A stretch of DNA of 62,531 nt from Pelagibacteraceae bacterium AG-447-N18 (GTDB lineage: Bacteria; Pseudomonadota; Alphaproteobacteria; Pelagibacterales; Pelagibacteraceae). The notes under the pieces are model-generated. The model was given only the letters and a program-made list of their open reading frames with translations, had not been told where the DNA came from and searched no databases. Below, piece after piece: positions 10,767-19,385 of the stretch (the stretch's first letter is position 1; each line of letters starts with the position of its first letter). The stretch lies in contig QCQE01000006.1 of assembly GCA_003212275.1 (NCBI GenBank), positions 1-62,531 on the forward strand, given 5' to 3'. The translations under genes and the position numbers were made by a program.

Positions 10767-11447
10767 ATGACAACACTTCTTATAACTATTGTTCCGTCAC
10801 TAATCATATTAGCTTTTTTTTTCTTTTCAGATAAATTTAAAGAACCAAAACAAACTGTTGCTTTAGTTTTTTTTCTTGGGATATTAATTTGTTTACCAGC
10901 TGGAATAATAAATGATTTTATGTATGAAACATTTAATGATGGTTCAGACTTTTCCAACAGACTATCTTCAAGTTTTTTGAGCGCTGCTTGGTCTGAGGAA
11001 CTTTTGAAGTTTGTGATTTTATATTTTATAGTTTTACAAAGAAATGAATTTAATGAACCTATGGATGGGATTGTTTATGGTGTTGCTGTTTCATTAGGTT
11101 TTGCAACCTATGAAAACTATGATTATGTATTTAGACTATCAGGGGAATTTGGAGTTGATCCTTATCAAATGGCTGTGTGGAGATCATACTCGGCAATACC
11201 TATGCACGGACTAATGGGGTGTGTAATGGGATTTTATTTTGGGTTGTATGCATTTACTGCTAAAAAAAAATATATAGTCTTATGTCTTTTAATTCCTTTT
11301 ATGATACATGGTTTATATAATTTCTTACCACATCCTGCTCATTTTATGGTTTTAGGGGTTGTTATTGTCTACTCTATTGCTCTCCATTCTCAATTTAAAA
11401 AGATGCAAATAAATAAAAAAAGTGAAAATCAACAAAAAAAAATATAA
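10767..11447 (+). CDS. PrsW-family intramembrane protease
   Basis: 226 residues, about seven to eight hydrophobic helices. Family motifs are visible: 'WSEELLKF' with Glu77, Glu78 and Lys81, 'GFATYENYDYVF' with Glu116-Asn117, 'IPMHGLMGCVMG' with His147, and a later 'IHGLYNF'. PrsW relatives are predicted metal-dependent proteases of the CPBP/Abi superfamily; PrsW of Bacillus cleaves the anti-sigma factor RsiW. No anti-sigma factor gene lies nearby. It follows a secreted protein by 6 bases. Substrate unknown. Confidence 0.82.
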   Translation: MTTLLITIVPSLIILAFFFFSDKFKEPKQTVALVFFLGILICLPAGIINDFMYETFNDGSDFSNRLSSSFLSAAWSEELLKFVILYFIVLQRNEFNEPMDGIVYGVAVSLGFATYENYDYVFRLSGEFGVDPYQMAVWRSYSAIPMHGLMGCVMGFYFGLYAFTAKKKYIVLCLLIPFMIHGLYNFLPHPAHFMVLGVVIVYSIALHSQFKKMQINKKSENQQKKI

Positions 11448-11480
11448 AATTAGACAATCTATAATAATCAGATAATACAA

Positions 11481-11510
11481 TTGACTCTCTTTTGGAGACA
11501 ATGCTAACAT
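11481..11510 (+). promoter_or_regulatory. Candidate promoter for the DUF805 gene (near-leaderless)
   Basis: TTGACT at 11481-11486, 18-base spacer, TAACAT at 11505-11510. The ATG is at 11519, so transcription starting the usual 6-8 bases after the -10 box would begin at or next to the start codon. Confidence 0.4.
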
Positions 11511-11518
11511 AATTTCAT

Positions 11519-11893
11519 ATGACATTTGGTGAATCAGTCTCAACTTGCGTAAAAAAATATTTTGTCTTTAAGGGAAGAGCTTCTAAATCCGAATTTTGGT
11601 GGTTTCAACTAATCTGGGTTATTAGCTATATAGTAATGATAATTTCAAATAATGAAGCAATAGTTTTTATTTGTTTAGGTATAATAATATTTATTGCTAT
11701 TCCACTCATATCTGTTGGAGTTCGAAGATTACATGACACAAATAAATCAGGATTTTATTATTTGTTGTCTCTTATACCTTTTATCGGAGGCTTAATTCTT
11801 TTATTCATGATGATAGCTGATGGAACAAAAGGCAAAAATCAATATGGTCCAGATCCGTTAAAAAAAGTAGTAAAAAAAAGGAAAAAAAAATAA
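11519..11893 (+). CDS. DUF805 family inner-membrane protein
   Basis: 124 residues with the DUF805 hallmarks: 'FKGRASKSEFWWF' near the start, two or three hydrophobic helices, 'VGVRRLHDTNKSGFYY' in the middle and 'DGTKGKNQYGPDP' near the end, then a Lys-rich tail. The family is widespread (YhaH-like) and has no established function. It stands alone, ending 8 bases before a convergent small gene. Confidence 0.88.
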   Translation: MTFGESVSTCVKKYFVFKGRASKSEFWWFQLIWVISYIVMIISNNEAIVFICLGIIIFIAIPLISVGVRRLHDTNKSGFYYLLSLIPFIGGLILLFMMIADGTKGKNQYGPDPLKKVVKKRKKK

Positions 11894-12120: not shown

Positions 12121-12831
12121 ATGAACTATATGTCCTTATCAATATACGCTCTTCTGATAATATTGTTGATATTATCTTTAATTTTGTTCTTCAAACTTTA
12201 TTCAAAAATAAAAAGTTCTGATAAAAATAATTTAAATTTAATTGAGTTTCCTAAAGAAACAAATGCAAAAATAGAAAATTTAATTGATGAAATTAGAAAA
12301 TACAACAAAGAGCTTAACGATAATATAAATAATCAATATAAAGATGCTAAGTTAATTTTAAAAGAGGTGGATGATAAGATCTCTCCATTTGAAAAAGTAG
12401 CGAGAGAAAAAAATGATGAGCTAAAAGAATATAAAAAAGGATATGATTATTCAAAAAATAAATCAATTATAAATGGAGTAATAGAGACAATTGATTTTAT
12501 TGAAAACGCAGAAAAAAAAATTGAAATCAAAGATGAAATTTTAAGGTCTTATTTTTCAACCACTAAAGATAAATTAATTATAATTTTAAGTAATTCAGGA
12601 ATTGAACCTTTTAAACCAAAATTAAATTCTCAAAGTTTAGATGATCATGGTTGTGAGGTTGATGTTAATACAGAAAAAACAGATGATGAAAAAAAAAATA
12701 ACCTAATTTATGAAGTTTTAAAAGATGGGTATAAAATACAACTCACAGATAGTAATACTAAAGTAATTAGAAAAGCTTTAGTAAAAGTATATGAGTTTAA
12801 AAAAAATAATGATAACATAAAAGATACATGA
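12121..12831 (+). CDS. Membrane-anchored GrpE-like nucleotide-exchange factor
   Basis: 236 residues. A single hydrophobic helix at about 6-26 would anchor it in the inner membrane. A long charged coiled-coil segment follows (about 40-110), then a helical part ('SIINGVIETIDFIENAEKK'). The C-terminal region resembles the GrpE beta-wing: 'GIEPFKPKLNSQSLDDHG' and 'VLKDGYKIQ' followed by 'IRKALVKVYEF'. Classical GrpE exchanges nucleotide on DnaK and has no membrane helix. The gene overlaps the Hsp70 gene by 4 bases, supporting a functional pair. Assignment is by motif pattern; overall similarity to housekeeping GrpE appears low. Confidence 0.75.
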   Translation: MNYMSLSIYALLIILLILSLILFFKLYSKIKSSDKNNLNLIEFPKETNAKIENLIDEIRKYNKELNDNINNQYKDAKLILKEVDDKISPFEKVAREKNDELKEYKKGYDYSKNKSIINGVIETIDFIENAEKKIEIKDEILRSYFSTTKDKLIIILSNSGIEPFKPKLNSQSLDDHGCEVDVNTEKTDDEKKNNLIYEVLKDGYKIQLTDSNTKVIRKALVKVYEFKKNNDNIKDT

Positions 12832-14357
12832 GTAAAATAATCGGTATTGATTTAGGCACAACATTTTCAGCAATAGCTGAACTTGATGATCTTGGTAATC
12901 CGGAGGTTCTTTCAGATCCAGAAAGCGGGAATAGAATTACTAGATCAGTTGTATATTTTGGCAAAGATAAAGTTATTGTTGGTGAAAAAGCAAAAGATGC
13001 AGCTGTTACTAAAAGAGATAAAGTAGTTTTTGAAGTTAAAAGCCAAATGGAAAATGATGTTATTTATTCATTAAAAGATGGAAAGTTTATTGATGATAAT
13101 GGTAAATCAAAAGGTTATACACCATCTCAAATTTCTTCATTAATTTTATCTAAGCTTTCAGACTATACCTCAAAAGTAAAAAAAGCTGTAATTACAATAC
13201 CAGCTCAATTTGCTGATAGAGCTAGAGGTGCAACTTTAGAGGCAGCAAAATTATCAAAATTAGATGTTGAATTAATTAATGAACCTACTGCAGCGATCTT
13301 ACATTACGCAAATATGCCCAATGTTTCTTTAAATGGAAGAGTAATGGTTTTTGATCTAGGAGGTGGGACATTTGATATTTCAATAGCAAAAGTTGTTGGT
13401 AAAAAAGTGGATATAATGACTTCAGTTGGTGATAAACATTTAGGAGGTCAAGACTTTGATCGTGAAATAATTAAGTTATTAGATAAAAAATATAAAAAAT
13501 CAAAAGGCAAAGGTTTGGATGAAAAAGATCCAGTTATACTTGATATTGCTGAGAGAATTAAAAAATTATTGTCAACAAAAGAAAAAGTGTCAGATATAAT
13601 AGAGGGTCCAAAAGGACCTTTAAAAATAGATATTTCAAGAAAAGAGTTTGAAAATTCAATTGATACATTTTTAGAAAAAATAAAAATGTCTATGGAGGAT
13701 GCACTTGAAAAAGCAAAAATTAAAGCAAGTAATATTAGTCAGATATTATTGGTTGGTGGCAGTACTCGAATACCAATTATTAACGAAATAATTAAAAAAG
13801 TAATGAAAAAAAATCCTACCAAAGGAGTTAATGTTGATGAAGCAGTAGCTTGTGGTGCTGCTATTTTTGCAGGTCTTCAAAATAAAGAGGGGCTTAACTC
13901 GGCACAAAAAAAAGCTATTTCAAAAGTGGAAATGAGGGATATTTGTAACCATAATTTAGGAACAATAATTGCAGCGGTAGATCCTGAAAGAAATCAGGCA
14001 ATGAAAATTAATAGTATAATAATTCCAAGAGATACAAAATTACCAGCCTCAATTACAAAAGAATATGCCGTTTTATACGATGGGCAAGAGTCTATTAAAT
14101 GCACTGTCACTCAAAGTGAGGAACCTGAGGAGGATATTGAGTTCGTCATTACTATTGGAGAAGAAGACCTTGCTCTAGCAAAAAATGCTAAACAGGGAGA
14201 AAAAATTGAAGTTACATATTCTTATGATCTAAGTGGAAAAGTTCATTGTATATTTAAAGAGACAAAATCTGGAAAAAAGACAGAACTATCATTGAAACCT
14301 GAAGGTTCAAAAACTTTTAAAGATTTAAAAGATAATCTAGATTTTGATATAGAGTAG
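12828..14357 (+). CDS. Lidless Hsp70 (DnaK-like) chaperone
   Basis: 509 residues. A complete actin-like ATPase domain is visible: 'GIDLGTTFSA' (6-15), 'INEPTAAILHY' (150-160), 'VFDLGGGTFDISIA' (174-187), 'GDKHLGGQDFD' (201-211) and 'LLVGGSTRIP' (307-316). The usual DVLLLDVTP interdomain linker is replaced by 'VEMRDICNH' (367-375). A beta substrate-binding domain follows to about 480, but the helical lid (about 100 residues in DnaK) is missing. It is coupled to a GrpE-like gene upstream and followed by TerB and M48 genes, so it is a dedicated chaperone and not the housekeeping DnaK. Nearest described shape is the HscC/short Hsp70 type. Confidence 0.9.
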   Translation: MSKIIGIDLGTTFSAIAELDDLGNPEVLSDPESGNRITRSVVYFGKDKVIVGEKAKDAAVTKRDKVVFEVKSQMENDVIYSLKDGKFIDDNGKSKGYTPSQISSLILSKLSDYTSKVKKAVITIPAQFADRARGATLEAAKLSKLDVELINEPTAAILHYANMPNVSLNGRVMVFDLGGGTFDISIAKVVGKKVDIMTSVGDKHLGGQDFDREIIKLLDKKYKKSKGKGLDEKDPVILDIAERIKKLLSTKEKVSDIIEGPKGPLKIDISRKEFENSIDTFLEKIKMSMEDALEKAKIKASNISQILLVGGSTRIPIINEIIKKVMKKNPTKGVNVDEAVACGAAIFAGLQNKEGLNSAQKKAISKVEMRDICNHNLGTIIAAVDPERNQAMKINSIIIPRDTKLPASITKEYAVLYDGQESIKCTVTQSEEPEEDIEFVITIGEEDLALAKNAKQGEKIEVTYSYDLSGKVHCIFKETKSGKKTELSLKPEGSKTFKDLKDNLDFDIE

Positions 14358-14360
14358 ACA

Positions 14361-15590
14361 ATGGAAGGTATTTTAATTTGGTTAGTTGTAGTTGTCATTT
14401 GGGCAGTTATTAAAGGTGCCTTTTCTTCAGGTGGTTCTGGTAAATATCAAGATGAAGCGGGAGATGACATTGATGCTTTCGCAATTTCAGTAAAACATCA
14501 AATTCCAGACAAAGCTTTACAAAAAGAGAGAAATTTAAATATTAATTTTAAATGCTTTATAATTAATGCATCGGGTTTAATTGGGACAGCATATCATAAT
14601 AAAATTAAAATAATTTTAAGTTGTTATGACAATACTGATAAAAATGATGATGAAATTGGTACAACTGTTGTGACTGCACACGAGGCTTACGCAGAAAATA
14701 GTCAATATAAAAGAGTTTTTGGTAAAGAATTTGTTATGGATGTATCTCAATCAACTTATTATCCCAAAAATACAGCATTATTTTTTGTACCTTCTGAATT
14801 TATAGTACCCCCTCATAGTGGTAAAAGACGATTAAAATTTGTTGTCAATATATGTGATGCTGACACACAGGTAACTTTTGGTGGCTATGATGATACAAGT
14901 AAAATAATTTACCATGCAAGTGATTTAGTAGATTTTTCTTATAAAGATGTTGGTTATTTGGACGCTGTAATCAATAAAGACAAAGTTGAGGATTTAACGA
15001 TTAAATTAGCGATGTGCATGGCTGCATCTGATGGTCATTTAGATCAAAAAGAACTTAATGTAATTAAAGATTGGGCAAAAAATTTAACTAATTTATTAGA
15101 AGAGGACAAACAAGCAGAAAGAAAGAAACATTTTTCAAAATTTATTAAAGAAACGTACACATCTGCAAAAGCAAAAAGAATTTCAATTTCAGATTTAGTT
15201 AAAGAGTTTAATAAAATTGCATCCAAAACACAAAAATATGAGGCAATTGAATTATTATTAAATATATCTAGCGCAGATGGAAAACTAAGCAAAGAAGAAG
15301 AGGTATTTATTAATAAGATCGCAAAAACAACAAATATAGATCTGAAAACTTTTAGAGATATGAAAAACAAAGTTGTTGCTAATGTTGAAAAAATTGAAAC
15401 TTTAGAAAAACCATCCGAAACAACATTTGGCCTTTCTGATGATATGACAGATAAAGAAAAATGTAGATCTTTAACAAAACAATATTCAAAATGGAAAGGT
15501 CAGACCACACACAAAGATCCAAAAAGAAAAAAAAGAGCTAAAGAAATGATAAAAGCCATTGCTGATTTGAGAAAACAATATAATTGTTAA
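14361..15590 (+). CDS. Membrane-anchored TerB-domain protein with degenerate J-like C-terminus
   Basis: 409 residues. An N-terminal membrane helix (4-18) is followed by a Gly/Ser linker, a beta-rich domain of unknown type (about 40-195), and a TerB-like helical domain (about 210-335) with two acidic repeats, 'AASDGHLDQKEL' and 'SSADGKLSKEEE'. The last ~50 residues resemble helix II - loop - helix III of a J domain ('LTKQYSKWKG', then HKD at 384-386, then 'AKEMIKAIADLRKQY'), but the catalytic HPD is HKD. In DjlA, TerB precedes a real J domain, so this may be a Hsp70 partner with altered control. It lies 3 bases after the Hsp70 gene and overlaps the peptidase gene by one base. Confidence 0.78.
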   Translation: MEGILIWLVVVVIWAVIKGAFSSGGSGKYQDEAGDDIDAFAISVKHQIPDKALQKERNLNINFKCFIINASGLIGTAYHNKIKIILSCYDNTDKNDDEIGTTVVTAHEAYAENSQYKRVFGKEFVMDVSQSTYYPKNTALFFVPSEFIVPPHSGKRRLKFVVNICDADTQVTFGGYDDTSKIIYHASDLVDFSYKDVGYLDAVINKDKVEDLTIKLAMCMAASDGHLDQKELNVIKDWAKNLTNLLEEDKQAERKKHFSKFIKETYTSAKAKRISISDLVKEFNKIASKTQKYEAIELLLNISSADGKLSKEEEVFINKIAKTTNIDLKTFRDMKNKVVANVEKIETLEKPSETTFGLSDDMTDKEKCRSLTKQYSKWKGQTTHKDPKRKKRAKEMIKAIADLRKQYNC

Positions 15591-16723
15591 TGGATTTTTT
15601 TGATAAATATAAGTTCTCCAGCGATAACCCTGACGAATTTGGAATTAATATTAATGAATTTAAAAAATCTGATGTTTTAGACGAAAGTCATTTATCAAAT
15701 TTACTGTCAACTTCAATTAGAATTACCGAAGATATTATTCCACAAGTTTATAAATCTATAAAATCAGTTTTTAGAAAATTGAAAGTCGAAAACCAATTTG
15801 ATTTTTTTGTAACATCTGACACTTATCAAGCTAATGCATCCTGCAATCTAATGTCTGTATCGTCTAAACCATATATTATTTTAACCTCAAAGCTTATTGA
15901 GTTATTAAATGATAAAGAATTAGAGTTTGTAATAGGTCATGAAGTTGCTCATTATATATATCAACATGCCTTATATCCAAATCCTCAAACTACTGAAAAT
16001 AGAAGTTTAAAATTAAATATTTTAAATCTAGGTCGAGCTGCAGAAATCAGTGCCGATAGAATTGGATTTCTTGCATGTGGTGATCTTGAGTCATCTTTAA
16101 GAACAAATTTGAAACTCGCATCAGGTTTAAATGATAAACATTTAAATTTTAAGTTTTCAGCATATTTAGATCAATTGAGAGAACTTGAAACTTTGGGAAA
16201 AAGTGAAACTCAACTATTTAGTACTCATCCAAGTTTTTTAATTAGAATGCAAGCTTTAATTTGGTTTTCGATGACAAAAGAATATCATGAATTTTTTGAA
16301 ACCAAAAAAAAAGGATCATATAGTATTTCTGATATTGATAAAAAAATTGAAAATTCAATAAAGAAAGTTATTGGTAATGAGATTGAAGTATCAAATAAAG
16401 AGATAATTGATAGAGCATTACTTTGGGGATCTTTAAATTTATATCTTATTGACAAAAAATTTACTAAATCCGAGCAGGGTAAATTTATAAAACAGTTTGG
16501 AGAAAAAAAAGCTTTAAAAGCTATTTCATTTCTTAAAATTTCTAATAAAGATATGTTAAGAAAAAAAGTAAACGACTCATTTACTGAAGCTTCACACTTG
16601 TTAAAAAGTGATAAAAATTTGCTTTTTGACGATTTAAAAAAGATTTGTCAGACAATTGATGGTAATCAATCCAAAAAAAATGCGACACTAAATGAATTAT
16701 CAAAAGTTTTAGGGATAAAATAA
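15590..16723 (+). CDS. Soluble M48-family zinc metallopeptidase with helical C-terminal domain
   Basis: 377 residues from the ATG in the TAATG overlap with the TerB gene. The zinc site is complete: 'HEVAH' at 117-121 (His117, Glu118, His121) and the third ligand region 'AEISADR' with Glu152 and Asp156. 'STHPS' at 211-215 is also a family motif. Unlike HtpX there is no obvious membrane helix, so it is probably cytosolic. The C-terminal ~110 residues are helical and may be a second TerB-like module. Gene order with Hsp70, GrpE-like and TerB proteins suggests a chaperone-peptidase quality-control unit. Confidence 0.85.
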   Translation: MDFFDKYKFSSDNPDEFGININEFKKSDVLDESHLSNLLSTSIRITEDIIPQVYKSIKSVFRKLKVENQFDFFVTSDTYQANASCNLMSVSSKPYIILTSKLIELLNDKELEFVIGHEVAHYIYQHALYPNPQTTENRSLKLNILNLGRAAEISADRIGFLACGDLESSLRTNLKLASGLNDKHLNFKFSAYLDQLRELETLGKSETQLFSTHPSFLIRMQALIWFSMTKEYHEFFETKKKGSYSISDIDKKIENSIKKVIGNEIEVSNKEIIDRALLWGSLNLYLIDKKFTKSEQGKFIKQFGEKKALKAISFLKISNKDMLRKKVNDSFTEASHLLKSDKNLLFDDLKKICQTIDGNQSKKNATLNELSKVLGIK

Positions 16724-16790
16724 AAAAATTTACTTGTTCATCTTGTTGAATTATAAATATTGCCATAACACTCATGAAAATAACTTATGC
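16722..16790 (+). repeat. Direct repeat, copy 1 (promoter-like, upstream of small gene at 16787)
   Basis: About 69 bases matching 18457-18526 with seven mismatches and one gap (about 89% identical by eye). It contains TTACTT at 16730-16735, a 16-base spacer and TATAAA at 16752-16757, all conserved in the second copy. The match runs through the start codon of the gene at 16787 and stops just after it, where copy 2 enters tRNA-Leu. Confidence 0.8.
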
Positions 16791-17062
16791 TTGATAAAAT
16801 TAAAAATACAGCAAATTCAACTTTAGAAAAATCAAAAGAAGCTACCGAAGCATCAATTAAGTATGGTAAAAAACTTATACGTAAGAAAGCAATAGAGAGT
16901 ATTAAAGAAAAATTAGAATTTGCTCAAAAAAAAGAAAGTGATTTTACAAAAGAAGAAATGAGAAAAATGATTGCTAGAGAAGAAAAGAAAATTATTAAAA
17001 ATCTTGGTTTAAAGGGAGGATTGACTACAATTTTAGCAATGTTTGGAATAGCAAATTTTTAA
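16787..17062 (+). CDS. Small amphipathic helical protein, unknown function
   Basis: 91 residues. The first ~70 are charged and helical with many Lys and Glu ('TLEKSKEATEASIKYGKKL'); the end is hydrophobic and glycine-containing ('GLKGGLTTILAMFGIANF') and may dip into the membrane. No family recognised. Its promoter region is one of the two ~70-bp direct repeats, and the next gene begins immediately after its stop codon. The pattern of a charged helix plus short hydrophobic tail resembles membrane-associated stress peptides, but this is only an impression. Confidence 0.6.
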   Translation: MLDKIKNTANSTLEKSKEATEASIKYGKKLIRKKAIESIKEKLEFAQKKESDFTKEEMRKMIAREEKKIIKNLGLKGGLTTILAMFGIANF

Positions 17063-17425
17063 ATGCTTAAATTTTTAACAAAACAATTTTTGTATGGACG
17101 TTTATATCTTTGGTTAAGGGAAAGAATAGGTGGAATTCTCTTATTAGCCATAGCCATATTTTTGATTTTTTACTTTCATAATGAATATCTAAATTATGTT
17201 GAATATAAAACTAAATTTGAGGAAAGCTATATTGGATTATCATTTATTATTAAGAATGCTTTAATCCTTTCAATTGCAGGCGGATATTTTTATTTTTATT
17301 TTTTTTTAAACAAAGCAAACAAGTTGATTAAAGAGGAGGAAATATCAAAAAAAGCAACAAATGAAACTAAAGAGGAGATGGTAAATACATTAGAGGAGTT
17401 TCTTGAAGATGAAGAATTAAAATGA
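17063..17425 (+). CDS. Two-helix membrane protein, unknown function
   Basis: 120 residues. Hydrophobic helices lie at about 23-42 and 65-85, then a strongly acidic cytosolic tail ('EEMVNTLEEFLEDEELK'). The ATG follows the preceding stop codon with no gap, so it is probably co-translated with the helical protein at 16787. No family recognised. Confidence 0.62.
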   Translation: MLKFLTKQFLYGRLYLWLRERIGGILLLAIAIFLIFYFHNEYLNYVEYKTKFEESYIGLSFIIKNALILSIAGGYFYFYFFLNKANKLIKEEEISKKATNETKEEMVNTLEEFLEDEELK

Positions 17426-17498: not shown

Positions 17499-18035
17499 AT
17501 GAAAGAAAAAAATACATTAAAAGACTACATTGAAAATTCTTTAGAAAAATCAATGTTTGCCAGCAGATGGTTTATGGCGCCAGTGTATATTGTTCTTTCA
17601 ATATCATTAGCGGTTATCACGTTAAAAGTTGTTCAGGAATTTTTACATTATATTCCTTTATTTATAGGTCTTAGCATAAAAGATCTTTTACTTTTTGTTC
17701 TCCATATACTTGATTTAGCATTAATTGGAAATTTAGTTTTAATGATACTTTTTGCTGGTTATGAAAATTTTGTATCTAAAATTGGAGCAGCAAGAGATAG
17801 TGAAGATAAACCATCATGGATGGGAAAAGTAGATTTTAGCGGACTTAAATTAAAATTGGTTGGTTCCATAGTTGCAATATCAGGAATTAATTTATTAGAA
17901 GCTTTTATGAATATTGAAAATTTAGATGACAGAAATATTAAATGGCAAATAGCAATCCACTTAGTTTTTGTTTTATCTGGAGTTTTGTTAGCCTTAATGG
18001 ATTATATAGCCTCAAAAACTAAAAATAAGTATTAA
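17499..18035 (+). CDS. YqhA/UPF0114-family membrane protein
   Basis: 178 residues with about four membrane helices. Family-like features are the N-terminal 'SRWFMAPVYIVLSI', 'ILDLALIGNLVLMILFAGYENFVSKI' and the cytosolic 'PSWMGKVDFSGLKLKL'. The family is conserved in Proteobacteria but has no assigned function. It has its own candidate promoter and is followed after 15 bases by the ATPase inhibitor gene. Confidence 0.85.
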   Translation: MKEKNTLKDYIENSLEKSMFASRWFMAPVYIVLSISLAVITLKVVQEFLHYIPLFIGLSIKDLLLFVLHILDLALIGNLVLMILFAGYENFVSKIGAARDSEDKPSWMGKVDFSGLKLKLVGSIVAISGINLLEAFMNIENLDDRNIKWQIAIHLVFVLSGVLLALMDYIASKTKNKY

Positions 18036-18456: not shown

Positions 18457-18526
18457 AAAAAAATTTACTTATTCACCTTGTTCAATTATAAATATTATCA
18501 TAAATACTCATGAAAATAACTCATGC
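18457..18526 (+). repeat. Direct repeat, copy 2 (tRNA-Leu upstream region)
   Basis: About 70 bases matching 16722-16790. TTACTT at 18465-18470, 16-base spacer and TATAAA at 18487-18492 form a candidate promoter for tRNA-Leu. The match ends one or two bases into the tRNA. Because a tRNA needs a promoter here, this copy is probably the original and copy 1 the derived one. Confidence 0.8.
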
Positions 18527-18610
18527 CCTCGTGGTGAAATTGGTAGACACAAAGGACTTAAAATCCTTGCCGCTTGCGGAGTGCCAGTTCGAGTCTGGCC
18601 GAGGGCACCA
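18525..18610 (+). tRNA. tRNA-Leu (anticodon TAA)
   Basis: 86 bases including the encoded CCA. The acceptor pairs GCCCTCG with CGAGGGC, the anticodon loop is CT-TAA-AA, a long variable arm of the class II type is present, and the T loop reads GTTCGAGTC. It ends four bases before the nadK start codon. Confidence 0.96.
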
Positions 18611-18614
18611 CTAG

Positions 18615-19385
18615 ATGAATAATGTTCAAATCATATCTGATAAAAATCAAAAATCTTTAAAAATAAAATCATTAATCCAAAAAAAAATTAAACAAAATAA
18701 TATTAAACGATCCAACATTACAATTGTTATTGGTGGTGATGGTTTCATGCTGCTAACACTAAAAAAGAACAGAAAATCAAAAAAGTTTTTTTATGGTGTA
18801 AATTCTGGGAGTTATGGTTTTTTAATGAATAAATTTTCATCAAAAAATATCATAAGCAATTTACATAAAGCAAGAATGATAACCATCTCTCCGCTAGAAA
18901 TGGTTGTTAGAAATAACAAAAATCAAACTAAAAAACATATAGCTATAAATGAAGTTTCAATTCTAAGACAAAGTAGGCAAGCAGCTTCTTTATCTATTTA
19001 TCATGGTTCTAAACAAGTCATAAAAAAACTTGTCTCTGATGGTGTACTGGTTTCCACACCTGCCGGAAGTACTGCTTATAATTTATCAGTTCACGGACCT
19101 ATATTAAGTTTGAATTCAAAAAGATTATCTATATCTCCAATAAGTCCATTTAGACCAAGAAGATGGAAGGGTAAAGTTGTAAGTGATAAATCGAAAATAA
19201 ATATCAGAAACTTAAATTCAAAAAAAAGACCAATTTCTGCTGTTGCTGACAATATTGAGGTTAGAAATGCAAAAAATATTATAGTGAAAACTAATCAAAA
19301 AATTAAATTTAATCTTCTTTATGATAGAAACAGAAGTTTGCAAAAGAAAATTAAAATAGAGCAATTGAGAAAAGAAACTTCTTAA
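18615..19385 (+). CDS. nadK: NAD kinase
   Basis: 256 residues. The NAD kinase motif GGDG is at 40-43 in 'VIGGDGFML', followed by 'YGVNSGSYGFLMN', 'NEVSILRQ' and the conserved 'DGVLVSTPAGSTAYNLS'. It makes NADP from NAD and ATP in the cytosol. The ATG is only 4 bases after the 3' end of tRNA-Leu, so a ribosome-binding site outside the tRNA is impossible; processing of the tRNA would leave a nearly leaderless mRNA. It ends directly against the convergent tRNA-Thr. Confidence 0.93.
   Translation: MNNVQIISDKNQKSLKIKSLIQKKIKQNNIKRSNITIVIGGDGFMLLTLKKNRKSKKFFYGVNSGSYGFLMNKFSSKNIISNLHKARMITISPLEMVVRNNKNQTKKHIAINEVSILRQSRQAASLSIYHGSKQVIKKLVSDGVLVSTPAGSTAYNLSVHGPILSLNSKRLSISPISPFRPRRWKGKVVSDKSKINIRNLNSKKRPISAVADNIEVRNAKNIIVKTNQKIKFNLLYDRNRSLQKKIKIEQLRKETS

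Follow-up and report, generated by a model that had tools for sequence, protein, structure and literature searches.

The 62,531-nucleotide stretch of Pelagibacteraceae bacterium AG-447-N18 analysed here (contig QCQE01000006.1 of assembly GCA_003212275.1; hereafter the window) carries, at positions 12121-16723, four genes that all run in the same direction in the list of open reading frames (ORFs). They encode a GrpE-like protein, an Hsp70 without a lid, a TerB protein with a J-like tail (TerB/J) and an M48 peptidase, and we refer to them together as the unit. The assembly measures 1.12 Mb in 36 contigs and is 94.8% complete; its nearest named matches are two uncultured Pelagibacteraceae contigs, from which a SAR11-type origin was deduced. 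The features of the locus are listed below with the evidence for each in brackets, L008 being a homologous locus described further on.

12121..12831, forward strand: gene for a GrpE-like nucleotide exchange factor with a predicted N-terminal membrane anchor (ORF; Pfam GrpE; head alignment; L008 homologue)
12136..12192, forward strand: predicted membrane segment of the GrpE-like protein, residues 6-24 (hydropathy 3.02)
12828..14357, forward strand: gene for a lidless Hsp70 of 509 aa (Pfam HSP70; alignments; tree)
13269..13271, forward strand: codon of E148, at the place of DnaK R167 (alignment column)
14361..15590, forward strand: gene for the TerB/J-like membrane protein (Pfam TerB; structure model)
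14367..14423, forward strand: predicted membrane segment of the TerB/J-like protein, residues 3-21 (hydropathy 2.45; model helix 2-21)
14481..14936, forward strand: predicted beta-sandwich of the TerB/J-like protein, residues about 41-192 (model strands; fold search)
14976..15404, forward strand: TerB helical domain, residues about 206-348 (Pfam TerB; low-confidence model helices)
15411..15587, forward strand: J-like tail without HPD, residues 351-409 (two model helices; profile match to J-domains)
15590..16723, forward strand: M48 zinc peptidase with no membrane segment and a TerB-like C-terminal part (Pfam; zinc-site columns)
15938..15952, forward strand: HExxH zinc site of the M48 peptidase (invariant columns H117, E118, H121)

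The GrpE-like and Hsp70 ORFs overlap by 4 bases, and 3 bases separate Hsp70 from TerB/J. The M48 ORF, which ends at 16723, can start at TTG 15584 or at ATG 15590; the ATG creates a 1-base overlap with TerB/J and matches the ATG start of the L008 copy. Pfam analysis of the window proteins identified GrpE (1.4e-8, 35.1 bits for a cut-off of 25.8), HSP70 (PF00012; 1.7e-84, 284.6 bits for a cut-off of 20.6), TerB (3.6e-12) and Peptidase_M48 (6.1e-18). Hydropathy analysis predicted one membrane segment in each of the GrpE-like and TerB/J proteins and none in the Hsp70 or the M48 peptidase. An earlier note on this DNA had described four genes here with overlaps of 4 and 1 bases and a gap of 3, GrpE-like and TerB proteins that are anchored in the membrane, and a soluble peptidase; the ORFs agree with this spacing if M48 starts at ATG 15590, and the hydropathy predictions agree with the rest.

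The four genes form one conserved unit. Gene order was counted in 12 loci. TerB/J and M48 are neighbours in all 12, Hsp70 lies immediately upstream of TerB/J in the 11 loci whose contig continues (11/11), and the GrpE-like gene is found upstream of Hsp70 in nine of ten, one of the nine being the G230 remnant. L008 has the four genes in the same order, with identities to the window of 60% for the GrpE-like protein, 71% for Hsp70, 54% for TerB/J and 62% for M48; L009, a near copy of L008, keeps the last three genes, its contig stopping within Hsp70. The Hsp70, TerB/J and M48 proteins of G015 are 52, 31 and 49% identical to those of the window, and G090 carries TerB/J and M48 at a contig end. A five-row profile retrieved nearly full-length TerB/J proteins from six other genomes of the class, belonging to five families, and a ten-row profile matched them over their full length. 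All six carry the unit, with the four genes present in G101, G313, G134, G332 and G159, where the 5′ end of Hsp70 is broken. In G886, from another class of the phylum, all four genes stand in order.

In the ORF lists, where start codons are uncertain, neighbouring genes of the unit overlap or are at most about 30 bases apart; the exceptions are a junction of 217 bases in G886 and the sites at which the G159 and G230 copies are broken. The genes flanking the unit differ from locus to locus. Among 41 genomes of the class, an Hsp70-type profile match of 276-282 bits, running from the profile start to about position 510, was obtained only in G000, G101 and G134, which are the three of those genomes with a full-length TerB/J. 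Since the order recurs in other SAR11-type genomes, in further genomes of the class and in another class, the arrangement is more than a chance adjacency in the window, and a juxtaposition of unrelated genes was rejected. The earlier note had called for a check of conserved synteny; the four-gene order is conserved, and the scatter of homologues over unrelated contexts that would have spoken against the note was not seen for the unit.

According to the alignment, the window Hsp70 has little beyond the beta part of its substrate domain, 6 of the 91 lid columns being filled. Nine unit Hsp70s fill 0-7 of these columns and 22 of 23 controls fill 68-91; the remaining control, L127, fills 8 and is truncated at the 3′ end. 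The ATP-site residues D8, K70, E171, D194, T199 and D201 are kept in the eight aligned unit members wherever these are covered. The arginine corresponding to R167 of DnaK is absent from all nine unit Hsp70s, which have E, E, E, Y, Y, Y, N, Y and Q at this place, and is kept in the 23 other Hsp70s, comprising 20 of 57 listed Hsp70 places, E. coli DnaK, E. coli HscC and the DnaK piece of the organism itself; the count leaves out L009 and L056, the latter having the Hsp70 half only. Beside the R167 column, the window and L008 show a one-residue gap and L010 none. According to PMC7289447, a J-domain acts by way of its HPD aspartate, which disturbs the contacts of R167. In the unit Hsp70s, the position of the linker aspartate (D393) holds D or E, and the linker is less hydrophobic.

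In a phylogenetic tree, eight unit Hsp70s formed one clade (support 100/100) that excluded DnaK, E. coli HscC and the other paralogues of the class, in a data set where HscC and some control rows sit on long branches and several rows, including that of the window, differ in composition. The cut paralogue par_L127 and G886 were kept out of this tree, and the L054 Hsp70 was entered as its unbroken 369-aa part only. Elsewhere in the assembly, contig C1 opens with a housekeeping dnaK that is split into two pieces (L001 and L003), the first with an in-frame TGA, which is perhaps an assembly end effect; dnaJ lies just after it.

The TerB/J-like protein has a DjlA-like order, with a membrane segment, TerB and a J-like end, to which a predicted beta-sandwich is added. 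In a structure model derived from a three-row alignment, an N-terminal helix is followed by a beta-rich part, by helices and by a better-predicted tail of two long helices (predicted local distance difference test, pLDDT, 75-89). In fold searches the beta part resembled Ig-like sandwiches, with a best Z of 8.4 over residues 29-193, a middling value; the best 50 rows of each search matched the beta-sandwich part and contained no J-domain, and sequence searches of the PDB returned nothing useful. The tail of the window protein has no Pfam J match, but the tail profile compared by hhalign with 20 divergent J-domains gave a score of 27.0 (P 5e-5), while the best of 200 column shuffles reached 18.2. 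The match spans 32 columns and helices I-II only, helix III lying outside it. These 20 domains were hand-picked from a larger listing and cut out by their HPD, several being DjlA-like in look; with DnaJ-type rows only, the match was weak (P 0.0025). G886 was in none of the hhalign profiles.

HPD is found in none of 11 J-like tails (L009 left out). At its place the window has K-G-Q, L008 has N-G-Q, G015 has N-R-Q, and six others have N-x-R or S-N-R, in a register taken from the hhalign match to the divergent J-domains and transferred over the tail alignment. Because R167 is absent from the Hsp70s and HPD from the tails, both sides of the contact between J-domain and Hsp70 are, to judge from the alignments, changed. 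The earlier note had called the Hsp70 lidless, the unit distinct from housekeeping DnaK and the J-like tail degenerate, all of which stands; it had missed the lost J-contact arginine, the DjlA-like order with its predicted beta-sandwich, and the two or more membrane segments predicted for the GrpE-like protein outside SAR11-type genomes. The DjlA-like domain order of TerB/J, together with a weak DjlA match (4e-5, far below the cut-off), would also suit a DjlA variant that serves the housekeeping DnaK, the Hsp70 of the unit being a side component. We consider this quite improbable, given that HPD is missing from 11/11 tails and that TerB/J adjoins, and co-occurs with, an Hsp70 of its own.

The zinc-site columns of the M48 peptidase (HExxH and a downstream glutamate) are invariant in 10 of 10 rows, and the zinc site is thus intact in its residues; E152 is presumably the third zinc ligand. 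Hydropathy analysis found no membrane segment in nine of ten members and a marginal one (1.66) in L011. The C-terminal part of the protein matched TerB with a score of 32.8, the best of 100 shuffles giving 17.6. The kept ATP-site and zinc-site residues speak against a decaying remnant without function, as do the codons that differ between L008 and L009, which are mostly synonymous (synonymous to nonsynonymous 14:2 in the Hsp70 part, 44:12 in TerB/J and 14:2 in M48). Decay is visible in the broken 5′ end of the G159 Hsp70 and in the deletions of the G230 copy; as an account of the unit as a whole, it is the least probable of the explanations considered here.

The C-terminal head of the window GrpE-like protein can be aligned by eye with that of E. 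coli GrpE, and the protein is predicted to be membrane-bound. One membrane segment was predicted by hydropathy in the window and L008 proteins, and two in the five complete members of the class and in G886, except that one of the five, G134, has three and a doubtful start. Between the first and second segments lie 11 to about 145 residues, the most in G886, and this stretch would be periplasmic. The G134 gene, which was not in the profile, was recovered at the expected place (1.8e-37). In G886, the GrpE-like gene is immediately preceded by what seems, by eye, to be an incomplete duplicate of the protein's N-terminal region (L162, 3688-4455). In G015, the place of the GrpE-like gene is occupied by a gene in divergent orientation for a 970-aa protein with no Pfam match (L010, 3664-6576).

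In the assembly of the organism itself, PF01025 finds only the GrpE-like gene of the unit, as would be expected if this protein replaced the housekeeping GrpE. Contig C1 begins at dnaK, however, and in an assembly that is 94.8% complete the housekeeping grpE could therefore lie in a gap; moreover, a search of 101 relatives did not find the unit in 98 of them. We regard such a replacement as very improbable.

The unit is rare. TerB/J was detected in 3 of 101 relatives, 7 of 385 genomes of the class (the organism's own genome being included in both counts) and 1 of 321 genomes of another class, and a phylum sample of 398 genomes gave, beyond the window's own, just partial TerB matches. A single-sequence scan of genome contigs retrieved two loci only. 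No relative was found in two scans of viral contigs, in a tblastn search of plasmids with three TerB/J proteins or in a tblastn search of phages with one. In the window, L008 and L009, the unit lies upstream of tRNA-Leu(UAA) and nadK; in the window (18525-19385) the tRNA gene immediately precedes nadK, at a variable-gene spot common to related genomes. The stretch before tRNA-Leu in five other genomes of the genus has other genes or almost none, and the unit is not there. The unit is therefore accessory and not part of a streamlined core, and the argument of the earlier note that a streamlined genome keeps these genes is not supported.

Around the unit, at 10767-11893 and 17499-18035 of the window, Pfam identified a PrsW-like protease and DUF805 and UPF0114 membrane proteins, and a PrsW-like gene is also present upstream of the unit in L008. 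Two small ORFs without convincing family (16787-17425) come right after M48; they were excluded from the unit because neither L008 nor L009 has a counterpart after M48.

This patchy distribution in a variable spot would suit a system of biological conflict, anti-phage or anti-plasmid, in which the Hsp70, GrpE-like and J-like parts would restrain an effector or sense invader proteins at the membrane, the M48 peptidase being the effector or the trigger. Several surroundings point the same way: the G313 copy has a resolvase and an integrase before it, a C5 methylase after it and, further on, a match to a candidate defence family (PDC-S57); an IS200-like transposase gene follows the unit in G101, and DUF2130 and DUF2779 genes are near it in G015. 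Conflict systems described for other bacteria in PMC7159879 include HSP70, GrpE and FNIII-DnaJ fusions, some with a second HSP70 lacking the peptide-binding domain. On the other side, PADLOC applied to the four unit proteins gave only weak fragments (AbiEi 0.02, capP 0.0045), and the six flanking window proteins scanned with Pfam include no GTPase or STAND protein. The copies of G134, G159 and G332 also lie seemingly amid housekeeping genes, with IspA beside G134 and CobT near G332 identified by scanning and the rest judged by eye. A conflict system is the strongest rival of the reading proposed next, and we rate it as possible but rather unlikely.

With slightly better than an even chance, in our estimation, the unit is a dedicated Hsp70 switch or machine of the inner membrane, working on the cytosolic face and coupled to a peptidase. 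The TerB/J-like protein would serve as an anchor and would recruit the lidless Hsp70 of the unit by means of its J-like tail, in a contact that has given up HPD and R167. Two anchored proteins would hold this Hsp70 at the membrane. The membrane-bound GrpE-like protein would reset its nucleotide state and, in carriers with a two-segment form, the part between the segments could act as a sensor of the periplasm. The M48 peptidase, which may be attached via its TerB-like end, would cut what the Hsp70 holds or exposes, acting on clients bound to or released by it. Physical partnership of the unit proteins, facing the cytosol from the membrane, would underlie this coupling of Hsp70 to peptidase, and the whole may serve in stress. 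A fuller version can be put forward tentatively, and we think it unlikely in its entirety: a new contact between the tail and the lidless Hsp70 would have replaced the HPD-R167 trigger, and a membrane-spanning exchange factor with a periplasmic sensor would, in place of a J-domain, set the cycle and control the peptidase.

Several observations weigh against this membrane machine. First, only the window and L008 GrpE-like proteins reach the Pfam GrpE (PF01025) cut-off (2/8 members), and the family compared by hhalign with E. coli GrpE alone gave P 0.099. The G313 member is below the Pfam cut-off and has no blastp match to the window GrpE, its profile match arising by construction from a profile of which the sequence was part. 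No GrpE-like gene was found in G015, an assembly that is 58% complete. Secondly, the copy in G230 is a partly deleted remnant with parts of the GrpE-like and Hsp70 genes, and its TerB/J has no membrane segment. Thirdly, the structure models have a mean pLDDT of 54 for TerB/J and of 43 for M48, the latter being too low for a fold search. Fourthly, the window and L008 have H-K-D about five residues after the HPD place, in or next to the helix II-III loop; in the window model it lies at the loop between the two tail helices, and it may therefore retain a weak HPD-like role in these two proteins. Finally, the pairwise distances of the four unit proteins correlate (r 0.81-0.97, G886 left out), which speaks for the membrane machine but would also result from plain vertical descent.

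If the membrane-machine reading is true, the unit represents a further Hsp70 type, which has lost both sides of the J-contact and retains its ATP site and its operon. A review recognises three prokaryotic types, DnaK, HscA and HscC (PMC8215388). The unit would let one ask, in a system provided by nature, if an Hsp70 can do without triggering by a J-domain, and in what way such a protein could be operated from the membrane and linked to a peptidase. Word searches of an open-licence library, from which most subscription papers are absent, brought up no description of the four-gene operon.

Compared with known systems, the unit shares with DnaK-DnaJ-GrpE the same three roles by family; it differs in the lid, R167, HPD and hydrophobic linker, which are all changed, and in an exchange factor predicted to lie in the membrane. 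E. coli DjlA is membrane-anchored, and its Rcs induction requires DnaK and GrpE (PMC11709261). An N-terminal membrane segment, TerB and a C-terminal J or J-like domain are common to DjlA, whose TerB-J order in E. coli was confirmed by Pfam, and to the unit protein; the latter has the membrane segment and TerB, lacks a J-domain with HPD, adds the predicted beta-sandwich and has its own Hsp70 and GrpE-like gene adjacent. E. coli HscC with DjlB and DjlC similarly combines a specialised Hsp70 with membrane-anchored J partners (PMC8215388). HscC, however, has R167 and 68 of 91 lid columns and falls in a separate clade, and the E. coli hscC stretch that we compared has no peptidase gene, unlike the unit. 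HtpX is likewise an M48 HExxH peptidase, and the unit M48 gives weak HtpX matches; the window protein differs by having no membrane segment and a TerB-like C-terminal part. The GAP1-N2 conflict modules also bring Hsp70, GrpE and a beta-sandwich plus J protein into one neighbourhood and, according to PMC7159879, the HSP70/GrpE/FNIII-DnaJ modules of GTPase conflict systems occur mainly in Actinobacteria and Firmicutes; the unit differs in having TerB and M48, with no GTPase among the scanned flanks of the window. Because a defining feature of each of the DnaK, HscC and DjlA systems was looked for and is missing from the unit, we file it outside all three, as a variant of the Hsp70 machine.

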